Assembly: GCA_016193065.1 (NCBI GenBank)
Contig: JACPSX010000294.1
Location: forward strand, 1-26,266
DNA length: 26,266 nucleotides
Source: Candidatus Tectimicrobiota bacterium
GTDB taxonomy: Bacteria; JACPSX01
Direction: 5' to 3'
Part shown: positions 562 to 26,030 of the stretch, one piece after another
Layout: each line of letters opens with the position of its first letter
Position numbering within the stretch: position 1 is the stretch's first letter
Position numbers and translations under genes: made by a program
Notes under the pieces: generated by a model
What the model saw: only the letters and a program-made list of their open reading frames with translations
Databases searched by the model: none
Told to the model about the DNA's origin: nothing

Positions 562-1173
562 TTATGGCCCTGGTCTTTTGCCCCGCCGGGGATCGGATGG
601 TTTTGACTGTACAAGATCATCGTAAACCTCGACCAGTTGCCGAGTGATCTGGTCCCGCGTATACCTGGCCATTACGGTCGCTGAGGCGTTGGCCACGACA
701 GACCTGCGCAGGTTGTCCTCCTCGAGGAGGCGAAGCACGTTCGCAGCCACAGAGGCGAAATCATTCGGACTCGCCAGGAGGCCGTTTTGTTCATGCTCGA
801 TGATCTCATCAATTACAGGGATCCTTGTGCTCACGACCGGACAACGGCAAGCCATCCCTTCGATAACTGAGATGCCAAACCCTTCATATCGGGTCGGCTG
901 GACCAAGGCATCGGCAAAAGAAAGGATCAGAAATTTATTCCTATCGTCGACCTGGGTGAACAGAAAGCACCTCTCACCCGTACCTTGCGCGCGATTGATG
1001 GAATCCAGTTCCCCCCTGCCCTCTAGGCTTTGAGAAATAAAAAGGAACGACGCCCGCGGAAACTTCTGAAGAATTGCCGGCATTGCTCTGGCCAACAAAT
1101 CAAAACCTTTCCGGTGCTTGATCTGGCCGATGTAGATGATGATAGGACGACTCAAAGATCTTCCATCTTCCAT
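562..1173 (-). CDS. Family 4 glycosyltransferase, C-terminal half (frame-split gene)
   Basis: This 203-aa frame is the C-terminal, nucleotide-sugar-binding half of a GT4 (glycosyltransferases group 1) enzyme. It opens in the 7-bp repeat and then shows IIIYIGQIKHRKGFDLL, the start of the second Rossmann domain. RYEGFGISVIEGMA follows, with the EX7E pair, and then the NGLLASPND loop. It lacks the acceptor-binding domain, which is encoded in another frame by the next segment to the right. The ATG at 1173 lies inside the tandem repeat and has no convincing ribosome-binding site of its own, so as a stand-alone gene it is unlikely to work. It is most likely the second part of one gene of about 430 codons, joined when the repeat number changes. 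The last residues (after YDDLVQ) are low-complexity and basic. Confidence 0.8.
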   Translation of the reverse strand: MEDGRSLSRPIIIYIGQIKHRKGFDLLARAMPAILQKFPRASFLFISQSLEGRGELDSINRAQGTGERCFLFTQVDDRNKFLILSFADALVQPTRYEGFGISVIEGMACRCPVVSTRIPVIDEIIEHEQNGLLASPNDFASVAANVLRLLEEDNLRRSVVANASATVMARYTRDQITRQLVEVYDDLVQSKPSDPRRGKRPGP

Positions 1174-1847
1174 CTTCCATCTTCCATCACCTCATGGTCT
1201 CTGCGGACACACTTTTTTATGAACTCCAACAGAATCCCATTAGGGATAACTTTAACGGGTTTCCCGGCTCCGAGGAATTGAGCGCACAGGCTCTTCTCGA
1301 ACACTGAGAGAGCTATGATCGCATCCGCCTTCGAAAACGCCGAGTGCATTCGGAAATTCATATAGTGGTCAAAAAACCTGCCGTCCTTCAGAGCGCTCCT
1401 GGCGACCTCTTTCAGCCGAAAAATTGCCGACTCAAAAGCGATTTTTCCGGCCAGTGGATCCTCCGTATTCTCTACGATGTAAGAATCGTGAAGGAGGCCG
1501 TGAGGAGTAAAGACAACCGGAATCTTCAAGATATTTCCGGCCCAAGCCAATAAAAATCCAAGACGATTTTTCGGATCGTGGATGCGAATAACGTCAGGTC
1601 GTTTCTGTTGAAGTAAAGCCAGCAGGATCCCGGGCGACAGACCATGTCGATGAGGCTTGACCCGCCACACCCTGATTCCTTCCATGAGACTTTTCCTGCA
1701 CCTCATCTGAGGAAAAGGGCTGCGGGGAACCTGGTAGCAAAGAAGCGACACCTGGTGGCCTGCTTCGTGAAGGCCCGTCGCTTGTACATAATCGGGCCAC
1801 GACTTGTAGTAATCAATCCCCGCTCCAGAACAGATCAGGATTCGCAT
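1152..1847 (-). CDS. Family 4 glycosyltransferase, N-terminal half (frame-split gene)
   Basis: The 231-aa product carries the N-terminal GT-B domain of a GT4 glycosyltransferase: MRILICSGAGIDYY at the start, TGLHEAGHQVSLLCY, RPDVIRIHDP, and VVFTPHGLLHDSY. The end of that domain, ADAIIALSVFEKSL then VKVIPNGI, normally leads straight into the sugar-nucleotide domain. Instead the frame enters the 7-bp repeat and stops after about 13 repeat-coded residues. The catalytic donor-binding domain follows in the -1 frame. The ATG at 1847 has a GAGGAG box five bases upstream and lies 9 bp from the previous gene, so it is translated as the last intact-start member of the operon. As written it would make an inactive half enzyme unless the repeat slips or the ribosome shifts. 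Confidence 0.82.
   Translation of the reverse strand: MRILICSGAGIDYYKSWPDYVQATGLHEAGHQVSLLCYQVPRSPFPQMRCRKSLMEGIRVWRVKPHRHGLSPGILLALLQQKRPDVIRIHDPKNRLGFLLAWAGNILKIPVVFTPHGLLHDSYIVENTEDPLAGKIAFESAIFRLKEVARSALKDGRFFDHYMNFRMHSAFSKADAIIALSVFEKSLCAQFLGAGKPVKVIPNGILLEFIKKCVRRDHEVMEDGRWKMEDL
1158..1188 (-). repeat. Heptanucleotide tandem repeat inside a glycosyltransferase gene
   Basis: Four perfect tandem copies of the 7-mer ATCTTCC (plus strand) occupy 1158-1185, followed by a partial unit ATC. On the coding strand the unit reads GGAAGAT and encodes a MEDGRWK-type peptide over three units. Because 7 is not a multiple of 3, each gain or loss of a unit shifts the frame. With four units the upstream half terminates just past the repeat at TGA 1152-1154. 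Two or five units would join both halves into one open frame with no intervening stop. Confidence 0.92.
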
Positions 1848-2933: not shown

Positions 2934-4304
2934 CTACGATCCACCTGCGGACTGCAGCCGGGAGAGGAAGCCCTCCAGATCGGGATCCCAGATTTTCGCG
3001 GGATCCCCGATCGTCTCCGGGAGAAACAGCGCATTCGGAGCACGGTCCGACGACTCCCCCCCCTCACCCCTGCCTGCGCCGCGGGCGCCTGTCCGCGTGC
3101 GGACACGCACAGGCGGGCGGCAGGCAGGCTGACCCCCTCCCGTCAGAGGAGAGGGGAGAGAAACAAGGGGATCGGGCCAGGGGTAAAGCACCAGAAGAGG
3201 GAGATAGCGGCGGAAACGCGCCAGCCAAGCGGCTTCCCTAGAAAGGTAAACGTACTGGTAACGCTTCTTTCTGGCCAGCCGCCGGCAGCGCATGAGAGCA
3301 TACAGTCCAAAGCAGAAGCGGTTCCCCAGGTTCCCTGCGGACAGCGGGCGAACCAAGTAGGTTTTCAGATTTGCATGGGGAGTAAGCCCCAAACTCTCCC
3401 AGAAGGTCTCCGGCCTTAGAGGCTCCGGGAGCCCGGAAACCACCGCTACCCGACAGCGTGAGCGGGCAAACGCATGGGCTTTCTGCAGCAGCTTCACGAA
3501 GGCCTCAAAGGATTCGGGAACCGCGGGCACCCCGACAAAGACCAGCGCCGGCCGCGCAGGCCACTTCGCGTGCAGTCGCTGGCGGTTCTGTTCGGAAATA
3601 TTCTCGCCCCAGTCGGGAATCCGATCGAAGCTGCGGTTTTGAAAATGATGCACCCAGGAGTCCTGGACTTTTACGGAGAGGTAGCCGGCCCGGCGGGCGC
3701 GTTCGCAGTAGTCGTTGTCCTCGAAATTCCCCATGCCGAACGTCTCATCCAGGAAGCCGACGGCTTCAATCACCTCGCGCTTGATGAGCAGGCAGAATCC
3801 GCTGCAGTGCTCGAGCTCCTCGATTTTCCCCCCGCCGCGGGCCAGTCTCAACTGCACTTTCCGCCAGCGTTCCTCGGACCAGGATCCGCCCACGTTCCCC
3901 AGAGGATTCACTAAGCCGACCTGCGGTCGCGCCGCAGCCGCGGCGATCATGCGGGAGAGCCAGCCTTCCGTAACCAGGGTGTCGTTGTTGAGCAGGCAGA
4001 CGTAAGGCGCCTGGGAAGCCCTCAGGCCCTGATTGACAGCCCGCACAAATCCCAAATTCGTCGGGTTGGAGATGAGGACCAGTTTTTCTCCCAATGAAGC
4101 CGAGATCCCCTGCAGGTATTCCCCGGTGCCGTCCGTGCTGCCGTTGTCGATCACGATGAGGCGCGCCAGTTCCGGCGTGTGGCGCAGGATGCTCTCGATG
4201 CACCCCCGCGTGTAGGACAGTTGATTCCACACCGGAATCACCAGGTCGCACAAAGGCTGGCTTCCTCCCTCTTTTGAAATTCTATTTTCCCAGGAGGCCG
4301 CCAT
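2934..4304 (-). CDS. Family 2 glycosyltransferase with C-terminal extension
   Basis: The first 240 residues or so form a GT-A family 2 domain of the rhamnosyltransferase-like type: LVIPVWNQ, VIDNGSTDGTGEYL, TNLGFVRAVNQGL, the nucleotide-sugar motif LLNNDTLV, and the acceptor/catalytic ED motif in FEDNDYCERARRAGY. A second region of about 200 residues has no family I recognise (SRCRVAVVSGLPEPL, YQYVYLSREAAW). Within it, near residues 383-418, lies a Gly/Arg/Pro-rich insert encoded by a palindromic repeat at about 3055-3160, after which the frame continues to a normal end. The ATG at 4304 overlaps the upstream gene by 23 bp and has GGAGG six bases before it. The enzyme probably adds a sugar to the LPS core or a linked glycan. 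Confidence 0.88.
   Translation of the reverse strand: MAASWENRISKEGGSQPLCDLVIPVWNQLSYTRGCIESILRHTPELARLIVIDNGSTDGTGEYLQGISASLGEKLVLISNPTNLGFVRAVNQGLRASQAPYVCLLNNDTLVTEGWLSRMIAAAAARPQVGLVNPLGNVGGSWSEERWRKVQLRLARGGGKIEELEHCSGFCLLIKREVIEAVGFLDETFGMGNFEDNDYCERARRAGYLSVKVQDSWVHHFQNRSFDRIPDWGENISEQNRQRLHAKWPARPALVFVGVPAVPESFEAFVKLLQKAHAFARSRCRVAVVSGLPEPLRPETFWESLGLTPHANLKTYLVRPLSAGNLGNRFCFGLYALMRCRRLARKKRYQYVYLSREAAWLARFRRYLPLLVLYPWPDPLVSLPSPLTGGGQPACRPPVRVRTRTGARGAGRGEGGESSDRAPNALFLPETIGDPAKIWDPDLEGFLSRLQSAGGS
3059..3130. repeat. Dispersed palindromic repeat, copy 1 (inside the family 2 glycosyltransferase gene)
   Basis: Bases 3059-3088 are identical over 30 nt to 5489-5518, and 3119-3130 are identical to 5519-5530. 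Copy 1 differs by a 30-nt insert (3089-3118) that includes a hairpin, GTCCGC-GT-GCGGAC at 3091-3104. The insert is exactly ten codons, so the frame is kept. The flanks carry the CCCCTC...GAGGGG-type pattern (to about 3160) seen in the other copies. The repeat is translated in frame as a Gly/Pro/Arg-rich segment. Confidence 0.85.
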
Positions 4305-5454
4305 AGAGATCCTCCACCTTGCGGGTCACCTCTGTCCAGTCAAACTCCCGCTCCACCCGGGCCCGGCCCCATTCGGCCATGGCGCAACTTCGCGCCGGAT
4401 CCTCCAGAAGAGAGCAAATAGCCGCCCCCAATTGCTCCGGGTCTTCCGGATGGTCCAGCAAAATCCCGTTCCGGCCTTCGCTGACTGCCTCCGAAATCCC
4501 GCCGCGCCGGGAGGCTACGATAGGTAGTCCGCTGGCGGCAGCCTCCAGGAAAACCATGCCGAAGGCTTCCCCTTCCAGGGAGGGAGCAGCGAACAGGTCT
4601 CCCAGGAGATAATAGCGGTGAATCTCGGACGGCGGGATCAAATCCAGAAACTTCACCCGGTCCCCGTAAGGACGGGCCATGGAGATGACGGTTTTGCCGT
4701 ATTCCATGCGCTGCCGGTCTCCACGCAAATCGCGCCGGATCTCGCCAATCAGAACAAGAGCCGCATCGGGGTGGCGGCGCAATACCAGAGGAAAAGCGGA
4801 TATCAGCGTGTTGATCCCCTTTTCCGGAGAAACCCTCCCCACAAACAGGATCACCTTGGAATTTTCCATTCCCAATTCCCGGCGCAGCCGCCGGACCTCC
4901 TCGGGAACTTCCCAGCGGGGGCGGAACTTCCGGGTATCCACCCCATTGGGGAGGATCGCCGTTTCCCCACGAAATCCGTCGAAGCACTCGCAGGCAAAGT
5001 TCAGGATGTACCGGCTGCAGCCCGCCAGGATGTCAAATTCAGGCAGCACTCCGCCGGCAACCGTGAACTTGTTGTGCACGTGGAGCACAACAGGCACCCG
5101 CGCTCCTGACAGGTTTTGCCGCACCGCCCCTAGAAACTGAAAGCGGTTGTGGAGGTGGATGAGCGCCGGGGAAACCCCGGCCACGAGCCGGGCAACCCGG
5201 CGCTCCATAGGGAATGGATCCAGCCGCGTGATCTTCTTGAACAGACGTGTGTAAAGAGTCCCGAACCGAACCCGCCGGTGGCGCACTCTCCGAACCGTCT
5301 CCTGCTCGGGGCGCTGCGGATCCCAGCAAGAGATGACCCAGGGCTCGTAAGACGCCAGGCGTCCGGCCACCTCGTCGATCCAGGTCTCTACGGCGGCCCC
5401 TTTAACGGGGGGAACCGGATGGAACCCCGGAGCGATGAGCGCGACTTTCTCCAT
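4282..5454 (-). CDS. Family 4 glycosyltransferase
   Basis: This is a complete GT4 enzyme of about 390 aa. The N-terminal domain reads VALIAPGFHPVPPVKGAAVE, a glycine-rich acceptor/donor loop, then SPALIHLHNR and VLHVHNKF. The C-terminal domain opens with VILFVGRVSPEKGINTLI and contains GEAFGMVFLEAAASGLPIVA, with the EX7E pair, and RRGGISEAV for the donor phosphates. The layout is close to the spore-coat CotSA group of GT4 enzymes, although an LPS or capsule role fits the context better. I favour the ATG at 5454, which follows AAGGAG at a 9-nt gap, over the GTG at 5472 that overlaps the upstream stop. The end overlaps the next gene by 23 bp. Confidence 0.9.
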   Translation of the reverse strand: MEKVALIAPGFHPVPPVKGAAVETWIDEVAGRLASYEPWVISCWDPQRPEQETVRRVRHRRVRFGTLYTRLFKKITRLDPFPMERRVARLVAGVSPALIHLHNRFQFLGAVRQNLSGARVPVVLHVHNKFTVAGGVLPEFDILAGCSRYILNFACECFDGFRGETAILPNGVDTRKFRPRWEVPEEVRRLRRELGMENSKVILFVGRVSPEKGINTLISAFPLVLRRHPDAALVLIGEIRRDLRGDRQRMEYGKTVISMARPYGDRVKFLDLIPPSEIHRYYLLGDLFAAPSLEGEAFGMVFLEAAASGLPIVASRRGGISEAVSEGRNGILLDHPEDPEQLGAAICSLLEDPARSCAMAEWGRARVEREFDWTEVTRKVEDLYGGLLGK

Positions 5455-5468
5455 GGAGACCCGCTCCT

Positions 5469-6713
5469 TCACGTCCGATTCCGCACGTCCCCCTCACCCC
5501 TGCCTGCGCCGCGGGCGCGGCAGGCAGGCTCCCCTCTCCCCCCTGCGTGGGGAGAGGGTGATTTCGAGAGATTGTAATACTCGTTCTCCAGAGCGCGAGC
5601 CACCCGATCCCAGGTAAATCGCGCCAGGACTCGCTGGCGTCCTTCTCTCCCCATCCTGCCACGCAACTCCGGATCCGCCAGGAGGAGGAGAATCTTTTCA
5701 GCCATCCCGGCCGCATCTCCGGGCTCCGTGAAAAAGCCGGTAAGACGGTCTTCGGCCACTTCGGGAATTCCTCCCACCCGGGTGGCCACCGCGGCAACTC
5801 CGCACGCCATGGCCTCGCACAGAGAGATGCCGAAGGTCTCGTCGGCAATGCTGGGGAGAACGAAAACATCAGCCAGAGCGAGATAGCGGGGAAGACGGGC
5901 GCGCGGAACCGGGCCGGCAAACACGATTTTTTCTGAAAGCCCCAGGTTCCCGCCCAAGTTCTCCAGATTCCGGCGCTCCTCTCCGTCTCCGAGGATTAAC
6001 AGTCTTACCGCGGAGCGGCGCTGGACAACCAGATTGAGAGCCACAATGAGATGACTCACCCCTTTCCAGCCGATGAGACGTCCCACGTAGAGGATCACCT
6101 GTTCTTCCGCGCGAAACCCCAGATCTTCCCGCAAGGATGTGTCTGCAGGAAGGGGCCGGAACTCCTCGGGATCGATCCCGTTATAGATCACCGCCGGGAG
6201 AACGCCGTAGCGATCCTGGACCTGGCGGGCGTTAAACTCGCTGCAGGAAACCGCGGCATCGACGCAGCGAAACCAGAGCCGGTCCGTGCAAAAGAAATCC
6301 CGGCCGTGGCACCCCAGCATCACCCTGACTCCGGAAAACCGCTTGGCCAGGACCGCCACCGGCAGGTCGTAGGGCTTGTGGATGTGCAGGACGTCGTAGC
6401 GCTCCCGGATTACGTCGGGCAGGGCCCGCGCCGCAAAACTCAGGCGCTCGCCGAGCTTGCGAAATCGGCTCCCCAGGTTCGGGATCCGGTGGCGCGGAAG
6501 AAACGGGTAGGAAAACACCCGGACCCCATCCGGGTGGGGCTCCAGATGGCCGCCCCGTCCGGTGAAGATGTGGATCTCATGCCCCAGGCGAGCCAGAGCC
6601 GAGGAAGCCCCCCACACGAAGCTCTCCACCCCCCCGATGCGGGCCGCTGCGGTGACATTGTACATGGCAACTTTCAGCGGCCGGCCGGAAGCCTCGGGAT
6701 TTCTCAAGCTCAC
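5469..6713 (-). CDS. Family 4 glycosyltransferase with repeat-encoded C-terminal tail
   Basis: The 414-aa product has all marks of GT4: KVAMYNVTAAARIGGVESFV at the start, YDVLHIHKPYDLP, MLGCHGRDFF, then VILYVGRLIGWKGVSHLI and DETFGISLCEAMACGVAAVA with the EX7E pair, followed by RVGGIPEVAED. The natural domain ends near residue 382 (ALENEYYNLSKS). The last 30 or so residues, rich in Gly, Arg and Pro, are the translation of palindromic repeat copy 2. The GTG start at 6713 overlaps the upstream stop as GTGA and has a GGAG-type box nine to ten bases before it. The role is most likely transfer of a hexose onto the LPS core; donor and acceptor cannot be read. Confidence 0.9.
   Translation of the reverse strand: MSLRNPEASGRPLKVAMYNVTAAARIGGVESFVWGASSALARLGHEIHIFTGRGGHLEPHPDGVRVFSYPFLPRHRIPNLGSRFRKLGERLSFAARALPDVIRERYDVLHIHKPYDLPVAVLAKRFSGVRVMLGCHGRDFFCTDRLWFRCVDAAVSCSEFNARQVQDRYGVLPAVIYNGIDPEEFRPLPADTSLREDLGFRAEEQVILYVGRLIGWKGVSHLIVALNLVVQRRSAVRLLILGDGEERRNLENLGGNLGLSEKIVFAGPVPRARLPRYLALADVFVLPSIADETFGISLCEAMACGVAAVATRVGGIPEVAEDRLTGFFTEPGDAAGMAEKILLLLADPELRGRMGREGRQRVLARFTWDRVARALENEYYNLSKSPSPHAGGRGEPACRARGAGRGEGDVRNRT
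5489..5558. repeat. Dispersed palindromic repeat, copy 2 (3' end of a family 4 glycosyltransferase gene)
   Basis: This copy has two nested palindromes: TGCCTGC...GCAGGCA (about 5501-5526) around a GC-rich core, and a perfect 10-bp hairpin CCCTCTCCCC (5532-5541) / GGGGAGAGGG (5549-5558) with a 7-nt loop. It shares 30 + 12 identical bases with copy 1. It lies wholly within coding sequence and supplies the last residues before the stop at 5469. A hairpin of the same CCTCTCCCC type recurs at the end of msbA. Confidence 0.88.
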
Positions 6714-7879
6714 GTATTCTCTCTCCCTTGCCGCGTTGCCAGTTCCCGGTAGATTCCCAGGGCTTTCTCCACATTGTCCGCCAGAGAAAACTCGAGGGCC
6801 ACCCTCCGGGCCTCGTGCCCTGCTTCCCGGCGCCGATCCAGGTCGAAAAAATTCTTTATTGAAGAAGCGATGGAGGAGACATCCAGCGGATCCTCGAGGA
6901 TCTCCCCGCCACGCCCCTCTTCGAGAAGCTCCGAGGCTCCATTCGACCGGCTCGTCACCACAGGCACCCCGCTGGCCATGGCCTCCAGGCAGGCATTGCT
7001 GAAGGGGTCGTAGAGGGTGGGGAGAAGGAACAAATCACCGGCGGCGTAGTAGGCTTCCAGATTCCTCCTGGGGCCCAGGAACAAAACCTGCCGGGAAACT
7101 CCCAGATCCGCCGCCAGCCGCTGGTAAGGGGAGCTATCCCCTTTGCCAATTACAGCCAGACGTGGCTCCGGCCGCACCCTCTTCTCTTTTAGCTCCGCCA
7201 GTGCGGCAATGGCATAGCGCAGCCCTTTTCTCTCAAAACCGGAGCCCACAAACAGGAGAAGAAATGCCTCCGCCGGAATCCCCAGCTCCCGACGCAAGGG
7301 ACCCCCGAGCCCCTCCCGGTTGCCGGGGTGAAACCGCTCCAGATCAACCCCGTTGTAAAGCACGTCCACCTTGCCCTCCGGCACCCGGTAGTGGCGCAAG
7401 ATCTCCTCCTTCCCGCGCCGGGAGTTGGTGAGCACTTTGCGGGTGCCGCTCCCCTCAAAGATGGCGCGCTCCACGGCCAGAAGGCTGCGGTGAAACGGGT
7501 GGATGGCCGTCAGCACGCGGTCCCAGGAGGGGGCGCCTCTGGCCCGCCGCAGGAGCCACTCCCGATGGCAGCCGTCTCCGGCCCGGTAGATGTCCTGCCG
7601 CAGGGTGCGCTCGAAGCTGTGCACCACGTCAAAGGCGTTGCGCCGCAGGGCCAGAGCACTGAAGGCGGCAAAGCTCAAGATCCGCAAGGTGCGAGGATAA
7701 GTCAGGGCGGGAACCCGGTGCAGGTGGATCCCCTCCCGCTCTTCTCCATTCCAGCGCCGGGAAAACAGGTGGACCTCGACCCCCTTTTGCAGAAGGACGC
7801 GGGCGAAGCGCGATAGGTAAAGCTCGGCGCCGCCGTACGGAGAATAATTCATCCGCACCAGAGCCACTCGCAGGCTCAT
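6710..7879 (-). CDS. WaaG-like family 4 glycosyltransferase (LPS core)
   Basis: This 389-aa GT4 enzyme resembles the RfaG/WaaG-like group that adds the first hexose to the heptose region of the LPS core. It begins VALVRMNYSPYGGAELYLSR, a glycine-rich loop. It then has VVHSFERTLRQDIYRAGDG followed by CHREWLLRRA, a signature I associate with core-LPS GT4 enzymes. In the C-terminal domain FVGSGFERKGL precedes LYDPFSNACLEAMASG, where Asp stands in the first position of the usual EX7E pair, as is common in this subgroup. The ATG at 7879 overlaps the deacetylase stop by 4 bp (ATGA). No membrane segment is seen. The GT4 call is sure; the WaaG-like assignment is by pattern and by the neighbouring heptosyltransferases. 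Confidence 0.85.
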   Translation of the reverse strand: MSLRVALVRMNYSPYGGAELYLSRFARVLLQKGVEVHLFSRRWNGEEREGIHLHRVPALTYPRTLRILSFAAFSALALRRNAFDVVHSFERTLRQDIYRAGDGCHREWLLRRARGAPSWDRVLTAIHPFHRSLLAVERAIFEGSGTRKVLTNSRRGKEEILRHYRVPEGKVDVLYNGVDLERFHPGNREGLGGPLRRELGIPAEAFLLLFVGSGFERKGLRYAIAALAELKEKRVRPEPRLAVIGKGDSSPYQRLAADLGVSRQVLFLGPRRNLEAYYAAGDLFLLPTLYDPFSNACLEAMASGVPVVTSRSNGASELLEEGRGGEILEDPLDVSSIASSIKNFFDLDRRREAGHEARRVALEFSLADNVEKALGIYRELATRQGRENT

Positions 7880-8700
7880 CGCCTTCCTCCCAGCAGGTCA
7901 TAGAGATCCCCGACCAGAGGATAGGAGTAAATGGCAATGCGGCTCCCGAGCCAGCCGATGTCGGCCCGCTTCACTGGGATACGGGGAATCCCGTAGAGCT
8001 CGGTCCCAGGCCGGCTGCAGCCACGCCGGGTCGTCAAGAGCGCCTGAAAGCCGACAGCCCTTGCAGCAGCCACGGCCTCCCGGGTAAATTCCCCCCAGGG
8101 CCAGCTCAGATACCGGCAATCCCCCTGCAAGCGCTGCCGGATCAGGTCCCGGGATAGCTTGAGTTCCGCCTCCATTTCCTGTACGGTCAGCCCCTGGGAA
8201 GAGATGGGACAATGGCTGTGAGTATGGGACTGCACGTCCACCAGACCGCTTTTTACCATTTCACCGAGCTCCGACCAGTTGACCGAATCCCCGCCGCGCC
8301 CCCGTTGTCCGAAGCGCGCCTTGGCCTCGCGATGGGTCGGGATCTCGGGAAGGCTCAGTCCCCTTGCCGCTCCCGCCTGGGGGCGCGCAGATCCTTCTTC
8401 AACCCAGGAGGTCACTGCAAACAGCGTGGCCTTGATCTCGTAGCGCAGCAGCAGCGGGAACGCGTAAACCCAGTTATCCAGGTAGCCGTCATCGAAGGTC
8501 AGCGCCACGGTCCGGCTGGAGAGGGCAATTTCCCCTTTCAGGAAGCGGACCAGCTCATCCAGAAAAATAGTCCGGAACTGCCCCTTCTTGAGGTAGAGCA
8601 GTTGGGTCTCAAACTCGCCGGGGGTCAGCGTCACCAGATCGCCCCGATGCGGGTTCACATGATGATACAGGAGAACGGGAACCGCCTTAGCCCGTCCCAT
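7876..8700 (-). CDS. NodB-type polysaccharide deacetylase
   Basis: The 274-aa product belongs to carbohydrate esterase family 4 (NodB homology). VPVLLYHHV opens the fold, TFDDGY at about residues 68-73 carries the catalytic base and the first metal-binding Asp, and SHTHSH at about 158-163 supplies the two metal-binding His. A WPWGEFT segment then follows as in the third motif. There is no signal peptide, so it probably acts on a cytoplasmic sugar or lipid-linked intermediate rather than on peptidoglycan. I start it at the ATG at 8700, which has GGGAG six bases upstream, rather than at the ATG at 8730, which would overlap the previous gene by 44 bp. Its place among core glycosyltransferases suggests removal of an N-acetyl group from a core or O-chain hexosamine. 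Confidence 0.88.
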   Translation of the reverse strand: MGRAKAVPVLLYHHVNPHRGDLVTLTPGEFETQLLYLKKGQFRTIFLDELVRFLKGEIALSSRTVALTFDDGYLDNWVYAFPLLLRYEIKATLFAVTSWVEEGSARPQAGAARGLSLPEIPTHREAKARFGQRGRGGDSVNWSELGEMVKSGLVDVQSHTHSHCPISSQGLTVQEMEAELKLSRDLIRQRLQGDCRYLSWPWGEFTREAVAAARAVGFQALLTTRRGCSRPGTELYGIPRIPVKRADIGWLGSRIAIYSYPLVGDLYDLLGGRR

Positions 8701-9826
8701 GTTTGTCTCCCGCCTGGCGCCGCCGGCCATTGCAGAGATCGCGGTAGAGAGCGGCCGTCCTGTCCAGCATCCGGTTCAGGGAAAATTGCTCCTCGACCCG
8801 AAGCCGCCCCTGTTCCCCCATGCGTTGCCGCAGATCAGGGTCCTGAAGCAGCTTGCGCACGGCCTCCGCCAGAGCCCCGCTGTCGGCCGGAGGGACCAGC
8901 AGCCCCGTCTCCTGATCGACAACGGCCTCGGGGATCCCCCCCACACGCGAGGCCACCACCGCTTTTCCTGCCGCCATGGCCTCCAAAACTGCAGTCCCCA
9001 GCGCTTCCTCCAGGGACGGGAACACAAAGACGTCGAAGGTGGCCAGGATCTGGGAGATGTCTTGGCGAAACCCCAGGAAAGAAACGGTGCGATCGAGCTC
9101 CAGCGCTTTGGCCTCGCGCAAGAGATTGTCACGCCCGGGACCATCCCCCACGACGAGGACCTTGAGCCCCGGGTATTCCTGGCGCAGGCGCGCCGCCGCC
9201 TCCAGCAGGATGCGATGTCCTTTTTTCCCCCGCAAAATGGAAACCGTTCCGATGACCGGGCCGGGGGAAGACAACCCGAGAGACTTTCGAAACTCGGAGA
9301 GATTGCCGTCCGGCACAAACGCGGCGGGATCGACTCCGCTGGGAATCACGACGATCTTCCGGGCATCCACCCCTTTCCGTTCAGCCAGGTAGCGGCGCAT
9401 GTACTCCGAGAGCGTGATAATGCAATCGGACAGCAGAGAATAAACCAGCTTGTTTTTCACCCGCCCACCCAGGTGGCGCGTCCTCACGACCCGGGGGCGG
9501 TGTCTCACGAACCTTGCCGCCAGACCCGCATTCCAACTGTCCAGTGAGCTGTGGGTGTGCACGATGTGAAACCGTTCCCTGCTCAAGATCCCTCTAAGCG
9601 TGAAAATGGCCCTGAGGTCCACACTACGGCGAAACGCGAGCGGGTAGACAGGGATATTCCGAGTTGCAGCCTCCAAGGCTAACGGGCTCCTGGCCGGGCA
9701 GGCCAACGACAACGTGAAGTCCGGCGCCGAGAGCCCGGTCAACTCCCGCAAGATTCTCTTTTCCTGCCCGCCCCATCCCGCGGACGACTCCGTGTGCAGA
9801 ATTTTGATCGTGCCGTCGTGAATCAC
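8687..9826 (-). CDS. Family 4 glycosyltransferase
   Basis: This complete 379-aa GT4 enzyme starts IKILHTESSAGWGGQEKRIL, with the glycine-rich N-terminal loop. It then shows FHIVHTHSSLDSWNAGLAAR and RTRHLGGRVKNK in the acceptor domain. The C-terminal domain has VIGTVSILRGKKGHRILLEA, VGDGPGRDNL, LEEALGTAVLEAMAAGKAVV with the EX7E pair, and VGGIPEAVVD. The GTG start at 9826 has AAGGA six bases upstream and follows the 300-bp repeat-rich gap, so this is the first gene of the left run. Its stop lies 14 bp inside the deacetylase gene. The role is probably in LPS core or surface-glycan assembly; substrate unknown. Confidence 0.9.
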   Translation of the reverse strand: MIHDGTIKILHTESSAGWGGQEKRILRELTGLSAPDFTLSLACPARSPLALEAATRNIPVYPLAFRRSVDLRAIFTLRGILSRERFHIVHTHSSLDSWNAGLAARFVRHRPRVVRTRHLGGRVKNKLVYSLLSDCIITLSEYMRRYLAERKGVDARKIVVIPSGVDPAAFVPDGNLSEFRKSLGLSSPGPVIGTVSILRGKKGHRILLEAAARLRQEYPGLKVLVVGDGPGRDNLLREAKALELDRTVSFLGFRQDISQILATFDVFVFPSLEEALGTAVLEAMAAGKAVVASRVGGIPEAVVDQETGLLVPPADSGALAEAVRKLLQDPDLRQRMGEQGRLRVEEQFSLNRMLDRTAALYRDLCNGRRRQAGDKHGTG

Positions 9827-14581: not shown

Positions 14582-16366
14582 CTATTCCTCTCCCCGGGGG
14601 GGAGAGGTGACGGTTGAGGGGGACAGGAATTCCCGGGCTTCCTCCGCGGCGAACTGCATGTCGTGGTAGCGCCGGTAGACTCCCCCGCGCTTGATCAGTT
14701 CCTGGTGGCTGCCCTGCTCCACGATGGTCCCCCGGTCCAGGACGATGATCCGGTCGGCGTTCTTGATGGTGGACAGGCGATGGGCGATGACGAAGGTGGT
14801 GCGGGACTTCATGAGGTTGCTCAAGGCAACCTGCACGATCTTTTCGGACTCCGAATCGAGAGAGGAAGTGGCCTCGTCGAGGATGAGGATCGGAGCATCC
14901 TTGAGAAGGGCCCGGGCAATGGCCAGCCTCTGGCGCTCTCCTCCGGAAAGCTTGACCCCGCGCTCGCCGATCACCGTGCCGTACCCCTCCGCAAGCCCCA
15001 GGATGAACTCGTGGGCATAGGCCGCCCGGGCCGCTTCCACAATCTCTTCAAACGCGGCGTCGGGCCGCGCGTAGGCGATGTTGTTGCGCACCGTGTCGTT
15101 GAACAGGAAGGTCTCCTGGGTCACGACCCCAATCTGATGGCGCAGGGATTTGATGGAAACCCGCCGCAAATCGGTGCCGTCAACGATCAGGCTTCCCGAG
15201 GTCACATTGTAAAAGCGCAGCAGGAGGTCCACCAGCGTCGTCTTGCCGGCCCCGCTCATCCCCACAATCGCTACGATCTCCCCCTTGTGCACCGTCAACC
15301 GGATGTCCCTGAGGACGTCTTTCCCTTCCGGCGAATACCGGAAGGAGACCCCACGGAACTCAATATCACGGGAAAAACGAGGCAAGGCCGGCAGTTCTCC
15401 ATCCGCAGCCGCTTCGGTCGGGGACTCCATGAGCGCGAAAACCCTCTCGGCGGCGGCGATGGACTCCTGGACCTGGGAGTACGCCTTGCCCAGAACGCGG
15501 GCCGGATTGTAGAGAAGGAAGAGCCCGCCCACGAAGGCGAAGAAAGTCCCCGTGGTCACCGTACCCTTGAAGACCTGGTTCCCTCCGTACCAGATGATCA
15601 CGGCGGCCCCGCACACCCCCAGGAATTCCATGAGCGGGCTGGTGAGCTCGCTGTACTTCACGCTTTTCATGATCACCTGAAAGAACGCCTTGTTGTCCTT
15701 CTGGAATTTTTTCTCCTCCAGCCCCTCCCCGCCAAAGGCCCGCACCACCCGGACCCCGGAAAAGGATTCCTGCAGCGTGCCGGTGAGTTTCCCCATGATC
15801 TCCTGTCCCCGGTGACCGAGCCGGCGCAGGTGCCGGGCGATCATGGAGACCACGACCGCCGTCACGGGAAACACCAGCAGAGAGATGAGGGCCCAATCCC
15901 ACTTGTAGTAAAACACCCACCCCAGCAGCCCAAGCAGCGTCACCGTGTTGATCAGGACGTCCCGAAAAACGCTGGTGACCGACTTCTGCATGGTGGTGAC
16001 ATCGTACAGGACGCGGGACATGAGGGCCCCTGTGGAGTCCCCGTCGAAGTGGGATAGGGGCAGGCGGTGAATGTGGCGGAAGAGTTCCGTGCGCAGGTCG
16101 ACGAGAAGGCTGCCGCTCACGTAGTACATGAGATAATCCTGCAGGTACGAGCAGGTGGCCTTCACAAAGTAGAGGCCCACGATGGCCAGAGGGAGCAAGG
16201 TGAGCATTTTCCGGTCCCGCCCCGCGAAGATCTGGTCAAAAATCTTCTGGATCAGCGGAACGGGCGAGGTGGCCACGGCTCCCACCACGACGGATAGCAG
16301 CAAGGCCGCCGCCAGGGGAACCAGGTAGGGGCGCAGGTAGGGGAGAAGTTTAGCCAGAATCTTCAT
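14582..16366 (-). CDS. msbA: MsbA-type lipid A / LPS-core ABC exporter
   Basis: This is a 594-aa half-transporter with an N-terminal membrane domain and a C-terminal nucleotide-binding domain. Hydrophobic segments lie near residues 14-35, 58-80, 135-180 and 245-290. The nucleotide-binding domain has Walker A GMSGAGKTT at about 369-377, the signature LSGGERQR near 470, Walker B ILILDEATSSLD near 491 and the H-loop AHRLS. The length and order fit MsbA, which flips lipid A-core across the inner membrane as a homodimer, and the LPS-core neighbours support this. The last 13 residues (SPSTVTSPPRGEE) come from a CCTCTCCCC hairpin repeat. The ATG overlaps the waaE stop by 4 bp (ATGA). A generic multidrug ABC exporter is the alternative. 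Confidence 0.9.
   Translation of the reverse strand: MKILAKLLPYLRPYLVPLAAALLLSVVVGAVATSPVPLIQKIFDQIFAGRDRKMLTLLPLAIVGLYFVKATCSYLQDYLMYYVSGSLLVDLRTELFRHIHRLPLSHFDGDSTGALMSRVLYDVTTMQKSVTSVFRDVLINTVTLLGLLGWVFYYKWDWALISLLVFPVTAVVVSMIARHLRRLGHRGQEIMGKLTGTLQESFSGVRVVRAFGGEGLEEKKFQKDNKAFFQVIMKSVKYSELTSPLMEFLGVCGAAVIIWYGGNQVFKGTVTTGTFFAFVGGLFLLYNPARVLGKAYSQVQESIAAAERVFALMESPTEAAADGELPALPRFSRDIEFRGVSFRYSPEGKDVLRDIRLTVHKGEIVAIVGMSGAGKTTLVDLLLRFYNVTSGSLIVDGTDLRRVSIKSLRHQIGVVTQETFLFNDTVRNNIAYARPDAAFEEIVEAARAAYAHEFILGLAEGYGTVIGERGVKLSGGERQRLAIARALLKDAPILILDEATSSLDSESEKIVQVALSNLMKSRTTFVIAHRLSTIKNADRIIVLDRGTIVEQGSHQELIKRGGVYRRYHDMQFAAEEAREFLSPSTVTSPPRGEE
14587..14607. repeat. CCTCTCCCC hairpin at the 3' end of msbA
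   Basis: CCTCTCCCC (14587-14595) and GGGGAGAGG (14599-14607) form a perfect 9-bp hairpin with a GGG loop. It lies within the msbA coding region, encodes the last residues of MsbA, and matches the hairpin of repeat copy 2. Any role as an attenuator before waaF is unproven. Confidence 0.78.
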
Positions 16367-22041: not shown

Positions 22042-22121
22042 TCGGAAATCGAAGGTTTCTCGCATTTCTCGGGGTCTCAGGCTGAATGCGGATCGCTTAT
22101 TTTTTTTTTAGGAGAATCAAA

Positions 22122-24374
22122 ATGCCCTTTAAAATTATCGGTGCCCCTAACGGTCCGGAGAAAGTCACCGGTCGCGCCAAGTACGCAGCGGACATTCACC
22201 CCCCCGGAACGCTGTGGGGCAGATGTCTGCGCAGCCCCTTGCCCCACGCCCGGTTCACGCGGATCGACATCAGCGCGGCGGCCAAGCTTCCCGGCGTGCA
22301 TGCGGTGCTGACGGCCAAAGATCTTCCCAACAAACTGGTCGGGCGCAGCGTATACGACATGCCCGTGCTGTCCTACGACCACATCCGCTTTGCCGGCGAG
22401 CGCATTGCGGTGGTAGCCGCCGAAGACCCCGACACCGCGGACGAGGCCATTTCCCTCATCGAGGTGGATTATGAGGAGCTGCCGGCGGTCTTCAACCCGC
22501 TGGACGCCATCAAGGAAGACGCGCCGCGGCTCCACCCCCACATCAGCCAGTACGAAAATGCCCCGCCCGAGCCCTTTCAATCCGACCTCCCGAACGTGGG
22601 CTCCCGCGTGTGGTGGAAGTTGGGCAACGTGGAGGAGGGGTTTGCCGCCAGCGATCACATCTTCGAGCACACCTTCACCACTCAGCCTATGCACCAGGGC
22701 TACATCGAACCCCATGCCTGCCTGGTGCAGATTGACGAGACGGGCCACGTTCACGTGTATCTAAGCACCAAGGCTCCGTACGCGGTGAAAAAACAGTTCG
22801 CCCACGTGACCCAGCTCCCTCCGGAACAGGTCACCGTGCACATCGTCCCCGTGGGCGGGGAGTTTGGCGGCAAGGGCTCCGTGATGGATGCCCCGCTCTG
22901 CTATCACCTGGCCAGGCGCAGCGGGCGACCAGTCAAGATGGTGATGAGCTATACCGAAGAATTGATGGCGGCGAACCCGCGGCACGCCGCGATCATCACC
23001 GTCAAAACCGGGATGAGCAAGGAGGGCCGCATCCTGGCGCGGCAGGTCCGGGCCCTGTGGGACTCGGGGGCATATACCGGCTTCAAGCCCACCCCGGTGG
23101 CGAATATGTTCGGAGCCTATGCGGCGGCCGGCCACTACGCGATCCCCCACGTCTCCATCGAAGCGCTCTCCGTGAACACGAACAATCCACCAGCAGGCTA
23201 CATGCGCTCCCCGGGAGAGCCCCAGACGATCTTTGCCGCCGAGTCCCAAATCGACATCATCGCCCACGCTCTCAAGATGGATCCCTACGAATTCCGCATG
23301 AAGAACGTCATCACCGCTGGCTACCCCCTGCCCACCTTCAAACCCACCCCGGAGACTCTGGAACACCTCAAGGGGCGAGAGGTGCTGGAAGCGGGCTTCA
23401 AGGCCTTCGGCTGGGATCGTCCCAAGGCCGGACCCAACCGGGGCAAGGGGATGGCTTTCACGCAGCGCCACATCGGCGTAGGACAATCGAATGCCGCTGT
23501 TACTCTTTTGCCCGATGGCCACGTGGAACTCTTAACCGTGACCCCCGATACCGGCGCGGGCGCCTACGCCATGCTTCAGCAAGTGGTCGGTGAGGCGTTG
23601 CAGATCGATCCTTTGAGGGTGCAGATCAAGGTGGGCACCACGGACAGCTTCGATACGTTCGACACGGGAGCCGCGGCCAACCGCGTCACCTATGTGGCCG
23701 GCAAGGCAACCCTGGGTGCCATCGAGGAATTAAAAACCCGGATTCGCAAGCAACTGGCGGAGCAGTGGCGGTGTGCCGAGGGAGAGATTCTTTTCCAGGA
23801 AGGTCACTGCGTCTGCAAGAGGGATCCCGCGCAAAAAATCTCCTACGGGGATCTGGCCAAGAGGAGTTCGGAGCCACTGACGGCAAAGTATCACTTCTCG
23901 CAGGCTGACTTTCCCCATGTGGTCAACTTCTCCGCTCAGTTCGCCGAGGTGGAGGTGGATCCGGAGACGGGAGAATACAAGATCCTGCGCATGGTCACCG
24001 TGCACGACCCGGGGACCATCCTGAACCCCCTGGGCTTCCAGGGGCAGATCGACGGCGGCCTCGTGCAGGGAATTGGATACGCCAAGATGGAAATTCTGAA
24101 CCGAGACCAAGGGCGGGTCACCACGCTGAACCTGGGAGACTACAAAATCCCCGTGAACAAAGATATTCCGCCCTTGCAGACCGTGCTGGTTCCGGACGAG
24201 CACGGCCCGGGGCCGTTCGGGGGCAAGTCGGTGGGTGAGAGCGCGAACACGATGCCTGCGACGGTAATTGCCAACGCCATCTTCGATGCCACCGGCATCC
24301 GCCTTTTCTCGCTGCCAATCACGGCGGAGCAAATTTACCAGGAACTGCGCAAGCGGCCTGCGCTTCAAAGGTAA
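22122..24374 (+). CDS. Xanthine dehydrogenase-family molybdopterin-binding subunit (orphan)
   Basis: The 750-aa protein has the two domains of the molybdenum subunit of the xanthine dehydrogenase / CO dehydrogenase / 4-hydroxybenzoyl-CoA reductase family. The N-terminal 'a/b hammerhead' domain spans about residues 15-130 (VTGRAKYAADI, LRSPLPHARF). The molybdopterin-binding domain shows GGEFGGKG near 245, YMRSPGEPQ near 361, and GGKSVGES near 700, whose Glu corresponds to the catalytic base. The start at 22122 has AGGAG seven bases upstream; the in-frame ATG at 22086 would translate through a T-run. No iron-sulfur or FAD subunit gene and no Mo-insertion chaperone lies beside it, so the substrate is unknown. 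It is transcribed away from the LPS operon. Confidence 0.93.
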   Translation: MPFKIIGAPNGPEKVTGRAKYAADIHPPGTLWGRCLRSPLPHARFTRIDISAAAKLPGVHAVLTAKDLPNKLVGRSVYDMPVLSYDHIRFAGERIAVVAAEDPDTADEAISLIEVDYEELPAVFNPLDAIKEDAPRLHPHISQYENAPPEPFQSDLPNVGSRVWWKLGNVEEGFAASDHIFEHTFTTQPMHQGYIEPHACLVQIDETGHVHVYLSTKAPYAVKKQFAHVTQLPPEQVTVHIVPVGGEFGGKGSVMDAPLCYHLARRSGRPVKMVMSYTEELMAANPRHAAIITVKTGMSKEGRILARQVRALWDSGAYTGFKPTPVANMFGAYAAAGHYAIPHVSIEALSVNTNNPPAGYMRSPGEPQTIFAAESQIDIIAHALKMDPYEFRMKNVITAGYPLPTFKPTPETLEHLKGREVLEAGFKAFGWDRPKAGPNRGKGMAFTQRHIGVGQSNAAVTLLPDGHVELLTVTPDTGAGAYAMLQQVVGEALQIDPLRVQIKVGTTDSFDTFDTGAAANRVTYVAGKATLGAIEELKTRIRKQLAEQWRCAEGEILFQEGHCVCKRDPAQKISYGDLAKRSSEPLTAKYHFSQADFPHVVNFSAQFAEVEVDPETGEYKILRMVTVHDPGTILNPLGFQGQIDGGLVQGIGYAKMEILNRDQGRVTTLNLGDYKIPVNKDIPPLQTVLVPDEHGPGPFGGKSVGESANTMPATVIANAIFDATGIRLFSLPITAEQIYQELRKRPALQR

Positions 24375-25607: not shown

Positions 25608-26030
25608 TTAGCCGATCTCGATACGTCTTGTCCGCAGACCGGCCCGCTTGGCAGCCTTGATCTGGCGGTCGTCGCACGACACGAAAAGCTCTGCCCCCCA
25701 CTCCAGCGCACAGGCGACATGAAGTGCATCCATGGCGCGGAGAAGGTTGGTTTCCAGCAGGAACGTCGATCTGGCGATGACGGCAGGTGTGAGGTTGACA
25801 ATGACGGCATCCGCCACGTCCTCTGACAACCGGCTCTTTGCCGCGATGTACTCTTGCCGAGACAGCCGCTTCTCTCGCACCCACCGGTTCAGGGCGGAGA
25901 TGATTTCCGGAACGCAGACAACGCTGAGCGCGAGCGCCGATGTCGCCCGGCAGACATTATCGACCTCCTGGCTCCCTTTCTCGTCAACATATCGCTTGGC
26001 AAAGGCAGAGGAGTCACACAGCGTCTTCAT
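25608..26030 (-). CDS. vapC: VapC-type PIN-domain toxin
   Basis: The 140-aa protein is a complete PIN-domain ribonuclease. The conserved acids are Asp6 (CDSSAFAKRY), Glu42 (VCVPEIISAL), Asp101 (LRAMDALHVACAL) and Asp120 or Asp121 (FVSCDDRQIKAA), so the metal site appears intact. VapC toxins cut tRNA or rRNA when free of antitoxin. The ATG at 26030 lies one base past the antitoxin stop, which is the tight spacing expected of a toxin-antitoxin operon. The left-edge pair of the window has the same family combination, but the two toxins start with different sequences (MKTLCDSSAF here, MKFWDASAII there), so this is not a recent duplication. Confidence 0.92.
   Translation of the reverse strand: MKTLCDSSAFAKRYVDEKGSQEVDNVCRATSALALSVVCVPEIISALNRWVREKRLSRQEYIAAKSRLSEDVADAVIVNLTPAVIARSTFLLETNLLRAMDALHVACALEWGAELFVSCDDRQIKAAKRAGLRTRRIEIG

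Follow-up and report, generated by a model that had tools for sequence, protein, structure and literature searches.

Switching of genes by the gain and loss of repeat units has been described mostly in pathogens and commensals, a distribution that could reflect a bias of the databases, as a 2025 review points out (PMC11868660). Among the systems reported so far, the nearest known analogue of the locus described here is neuO of Escherichia coli K1, a gene of the CUS-3 prophage that encodes a sialic-acid O-acetyltransferase and carries an array of the heptanucleotide AAGACTC in the 5' region of its coding sequence (PMC13001214). The alleles of neuO contain 3 to 53 units, the commonest having 20, the gene was OFF in 66% of 64 genomes, and mixed unit numbers were measured in colonies (PMC13001214). 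A second precedent is hmw1a of Haemophilus influenzae PittAA, whose ORF contains an (AATTTTG)14 array, located at 3.5 kb, and a frameshift that agrees with slippage; heptamers are also found in the promoters of hmw1a and hmw2a, where they tune transcription, and three heptamer units were the threshold of the survey of this species (PMC2651432). Heptameric repeats are also known as dispersed families, such as GGGAATC in Xanthomonas, GGGGA(T/C)T in Nostoc and TAACTGA in Beggiatoaceae (PMC4692102, PMC4679880), four units being the most common size of the Xanthomonas arrays (PMC4692102).

Here, we analysed a stretch of 26,266 nucleotides from a Candidatus Tectimicrobiota bacterium (hereafter the window), which corresponds to an entire contig (C234) of its genome assembly. 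The highest-scoring tandem array found by TRF in the window is a perfect (ATCTTCC)4.4 repeat at positions 1158-1188 (period 7, 4.43 units, 100% match), whose sequence in the coding orientation (minus strand) is GAT(GGAAGAT)4. It contains no stop codon in any of the frames. The array is far beyond chance: its period-7 self-match of 24 is the longest of the window, against 12 in 200 simulated windows matched to the real one in dinucleotide content, and the period-7 self-match was at most 12 in five simulations of 1.3 Mb. The window has no other perfect tandem array of this size, and nowhere else in the whole genome do two GGAAGAT units stand in tandem. The position of the array coincides exactly with the lesion of a gene.

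This gene, encoded on the minus strand, is split into two ORFs. ORF1 (1152..1847, 231 aa) encodes the acceptor side of a family 4 glycosyltransferase, with its N-terminal GT-B domain (PF13439, 2.2e-18, covering residues 23-207; PF13579, 1.1e-17) and terminates at a frameshift-induced TGA just beyond the array. ORF2 (562..1173, 203 aa) corresponds to the C-terminal, donor-side domain of the same enzyme (PF00534, 8.5e-30, covering residues 8-163), in which the EX7E-type motif EGFGISVIE is intact. The two ORFs are in different frames and meet in the array, where they overlap by 22 bases and where the first in-frame ATG of ORF2 (position 1173) is also found. Both Rossmann-type domains are thus present with family 4 / group 1 profiles, which assigns the gene to the GT4 (GT-B) glycosyltransferases and agrees with the sequence-only reading, in which the ORFs had been taken for the halves of one such enzyme. 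The same reading had proposed that two or five units would reopen one frame without stops, and in silico translation of alleles with n=0-8 units led to the same result, a single open frame being obtained at n=2, 5 and 8 only (423, 430 and 437 aa). With the four units present in the assembly, translation stops at 231 aa. The assembled allele is OFF, and an open frame needs a unit count equal to 2 modulo 3; the coordinates, the frames and the unit arithmetic initially given for the locus all proved correct when compared with TRF, the ORFs and the in silico variation of the unit number. After training on the neighbouring genes, codon log-odds follow the frame of ORF1 up to the array and that of ORF2 beyond it, with weak stretches, the signal being weak or adverse at about 1727-1550 in ORF1. 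Since domains and coding signal are intact on either side of the array, we consider ORF1 and ORF2 as one gene with a single break, located in the array. Neither the Pfam domains nor the coding signal revealed a second lesion in the two ORFs, and the break looks recent and single.

Pfam and homologue alignments both assign the array to the linker between the two domains. The closest homologues among 386 genomes share about 30-34% identity with the GT4 query. The homologues of four further genomes each form one uninterrupted ORF of 407-465 codons, devoid of an array in the linker; those of G201, G332 and G059 are full-length, and the match in G024 spans part of the query only. Their linkers measure 44, 46, 48 and 63 residues in the aligned stretch that was compared, for 52 residues in the joined query with two units; the 63- and 44-residue linkers, 19 residues apart, belong to the same genus. 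As the length of the linker varies among homologues, it tolerates length changes. A scan of a contig collection returned only a 26% match from Prevotella, and no relative was found in the viral-contig collection. At the genome level, the search for relatives yielded genomes sharing the domain only, none of them from the same phylum, and no 16S gene was detected.

The split gene is the last in a run of glycosyltransferase and LPS-type genes on the minus strand, several of which were identified by Pfam. Immediately upstream are a gene for a glycosyltransferase-like protein (PF13524/DUF3880, 1857-2933) and one for a family 2 glycosyltransferase (2934-4304), both recognized by Pfam, then four GT4-type ORFs (4282-5472, 5469-6713, 6710-7879 and 8687-9826), all matched by P0002, with 5469-6713 also covered by the Pfam search, and an ORF that reads as a putative polysaccharide deacetylase (7876-8730). 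Farther upstream, an ABC exporter (14582..16366, minus strand, PF00664/PF00005), MsbA-like from the reading of its sequence, is surrounded by ORFs named in the same way as heptosyltransferase-, HldE- and GmhB-like. Together, the exporter and these putative heptose-pathway ORFs mark what is probably an LPS-type biosynthesis cluster. The cluster is adjoined by a large plus-strand ORF (22086-24374, 762 aa), from its sequence a putative molybdopterin-binding subunit of the xanthine/CO dehydrogenase type. Close to the two ends of the contig, Pfam also recognized a Phd/YefM-type antitoxin ORF (70-375) and a PIN-domain ORF (25608-26030), respectively.

The locus resembles neuO in that a heptanucleotide array lies in the coding sequence of a polysaccharide-type enzyme and controls the reading frame by a modulo 3 rule. 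Unlike neuO, the array is in the middle of the gene, has four units of a different sequence, is known from one sequence and belongs to another enzyme family. The likeness to hmw1a of PittAA lies in the presence of a heptamer array within an ORF together with a frameshift, but hmw1a encodes an adhesin instead of a glycosyltransferase, has 14 units and comes from a species rich in known repeat switches. The dispersed heptamers also form arrays of a few units; however, they occur as many, mainly intergenic copies per genome, whereas the GGAAGAT array is intragenic and is the only one of this genome, which does not correspond to a many-copy dispersed family. Heptamer-switched genes being already known, with neuO and hmw1a as precedents, the GT4 gene would be a candidate addition to them.

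We propose that the array acts as a heptanucleotide microsatellite that is prone to slippage and lies in the GT4 gene where the two domains are linked. The gain or loss of one unit would shift the frame by one. One protein would be made whenever the unit count equals 2 modulo 3, the linker being lengthened by seven residues for each three extra units, so that the GT4 enzyme of restored alleles would differ by a small extension of its linker; all other counts would yield a product truncated after the acceptor domain. Slipped-strand mispairing could in principle restore the gene, which would result in a low-frequency, stochastic on/off control of one sugar-transfer step. As the array has only 4.4 units, slippage should be rare, although three units sufficed for inclusion in the H. 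influenzae survey. Of the features expected of a contingency gene, those of structure that a sequence can reveal are found here: the perfect repeat lies in the coding sequence and is beyond chance, the length of its unit is not a multiple of three and toggles the full-length frame, and both flanks are intact. A function in a surface structure may be suggested by the surroundings of the GT4 gene, where other glycosyltransferase genes and an ABC-exporter gene are located. As the defining feature of the class is variation of the unit number, we describe the locus, known from one assembled sequence, as a candidate SSR phase-variable (contingency) gene, and estimate the chances that a slippage-mutable element toggles the GT4 gene to some degree as about even. 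We further infer that slippage would be frequent enough in the population to be of use, that the joined protein would be active and that the switching would be selected, the enzyme presumably acting on LPS or on another surface glycan.

The alternative that best withstands these observations is a plain loss of function, in which a heptamer array born or expanded by slippage or local duplication in the linker would have shifted the frame and produced a recent pseudogene, which would not be maintained as a switch and may decay. We regard it as rather unlikely. The other GT4 genes of the cluster could render the split one dispensable, and an excess of heptamers among the repeats of many bacterial genomes has been reported, for which a bias of polymerase slippage was suggested as a cause (PMC4692102). 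On the other hand, a decaying gene is not apparent from the two halves, in which domains and coding signal are intact and no further lesion was seen, and the frame state stays revertible by slippage. The difference between a pseudogene and a toggling element is whether the number of units varies in the population.

Other repeats of the same genome (2.90 Mb, 86% complete, 294 contigs) were surveyed in a sample of 1.30 Mb. Among periods 4 to 11, self-matches longer than 13 nt were obtained for period 7 only, with values of 26 for a GATTTCG array on contig C160 (C160:106-138) and 24 for the array at 1158-1188. The sample contains four period-7 repeats of at least 17 bases, in three different units, and two heptamer arrays of at least four units, both within the coding sequence of a polysaccharide enzyme. 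The C160:106-138 array, (GATTTCG)4.7, is within a gene for a PF00953 sugar-phosphate transferase, which adjoins genes for a DegT aminotransferase and a Polysacc_synt_2 dehydratase. The location of both arrays in polysaccharide enzyme genes is suggestive, and amounts to one independent case, the first array having been the starting point of the analysis. A closer look at the second array lends support to a plain loss of function of the GT4 gene: it belongs to an in-frame insertion of 16 residues placed directly before the conserved FMGDSGS motif and missing from 20 homologues, namely a paralogue from the same genome and 19 others. From this alignment, the insertion looks damaging or tolerated rather than an evolved switch, and its position against a conserved motif indicates that arrays can arise in genes at unhelpful-looking places. 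We consider it unlikely that this isolated lineage, outside the well-studied host-adapted species, varies its surface polysaccharide by heptanucleotide slippage, the GT4 gene and the C160 transferase gene being a pair of switches in a single contingency set. Contig C160 has another array of the same CGAAATC-type unit, 19 bases long (C160:3889-3907), in a small ORF located after the Polysacc_synt_2 gene and at a distance of about 3.8 kb from the first.

A further argument for loss of function comes from another genome (G261), where heptamer arrays are found in and between genes without surface functions. In its CobB gene, a GGAAGAT array separates the CbiA domain from the GATase_3 domain, both identified by Pfam, and so occupies the linker joining two enzyme domains, as in the GT4 gene; it differs from the array of the latter in that it is in frame, longer and degenerate and belongs to a cobalamin gene with no surface role. 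The unit is also present close to the starts of putative CobT and CobQ ORFs, and in a degenerate intergenic array of 19 copies. Contig C1 of the same genome carries GGAAGAT/GGAAAAT arrays both within and between genes of cobalamin biosynthesis, as well as behind an asparagine-synthase-like ORF. The arrays of the cobalamin genes and the insertion on C160 together suggest that a heptamer array may appear inside a gene and yet be no switch. The sequence-only reading had recognized in the GT4 locus the signature of slipped-strand phase variation. This view is upheld by the stop-free heptamers, the 2 modulo 3 rule, the intact domains, the run of glycosyltransferase genes and the second heptamer-bearing polysaccharide gene; its use as a diagnostic is weakened by the GGAAGAT array in a cobalamin enzyme linker, the insertion on C160, the shortness of a four-unit array and its position in the middle of the gene. 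The anatomy of the array fits slipped-strand phase variation and does not prove it.

An error of assembly or consensus, by which four units would have been miscalled in a population that has two or five units and an intact gene, appears improbable. The fragmentation of the assembly into 294 contigs at 86% completeness speaks for it, and tandem repeats are known to cause misassembly (PMC6868369). However, a perfect array of 31 bases is shorter than a normal short read and should be spanned by single reads, and the window does not contain any N. Whole 7-base units are rarely added or dropped by short-read errors. Synthesis of ORF1 and ORF2 as two chains that reassemble into a functional split enzyme, with ORF2 starting at the ATG of the array, is highly improbable, because although this ATG (1173) is in frame and the 20 bases upstream of it pair with the anti-Shine-Dalgarno at -12.5 kcal/mol, the pairing probably comes from GAGGTGAT, too far from the ATG (about 12-16 nt), a nearer ATG opens another frame and the four homologues are single chains. 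Programmed -1 frameshifting at A AAA AAG, a heptamer located upstream and in the right frame, was also rejected, as the -1 frame meets a TGA before the array.

If toggling of the GT4 gene by slippage were confirmed, a switch in an uncultured lineage would support the view that the known distribution of such systems reflects a database bias; if the gene is merely broken, it would call for caution, intragenic heptamer arrays not being by themselves evidence of a switch.

Regarding the distribution of the units, a literature search for GGAAGAT returned nothing relevant. The unit was present in three of the 386 genomes, this one included, and in 10 stretches of the viral collection, for 4 with the reversed unit and 14 with a rearranged unit; a special spread of GGAAGAT was rejected. 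Several contigs of the viral collection have GGAAGAT in frame inside ORFs, in a search that would miss out-of-frame cases. Three tandem CGAAATC, the unit of the C160 array, were found in 21 stretches of the viral collection, compared with 3 for its reverse, an excess that gives a mild hint of a favoured heptamer.
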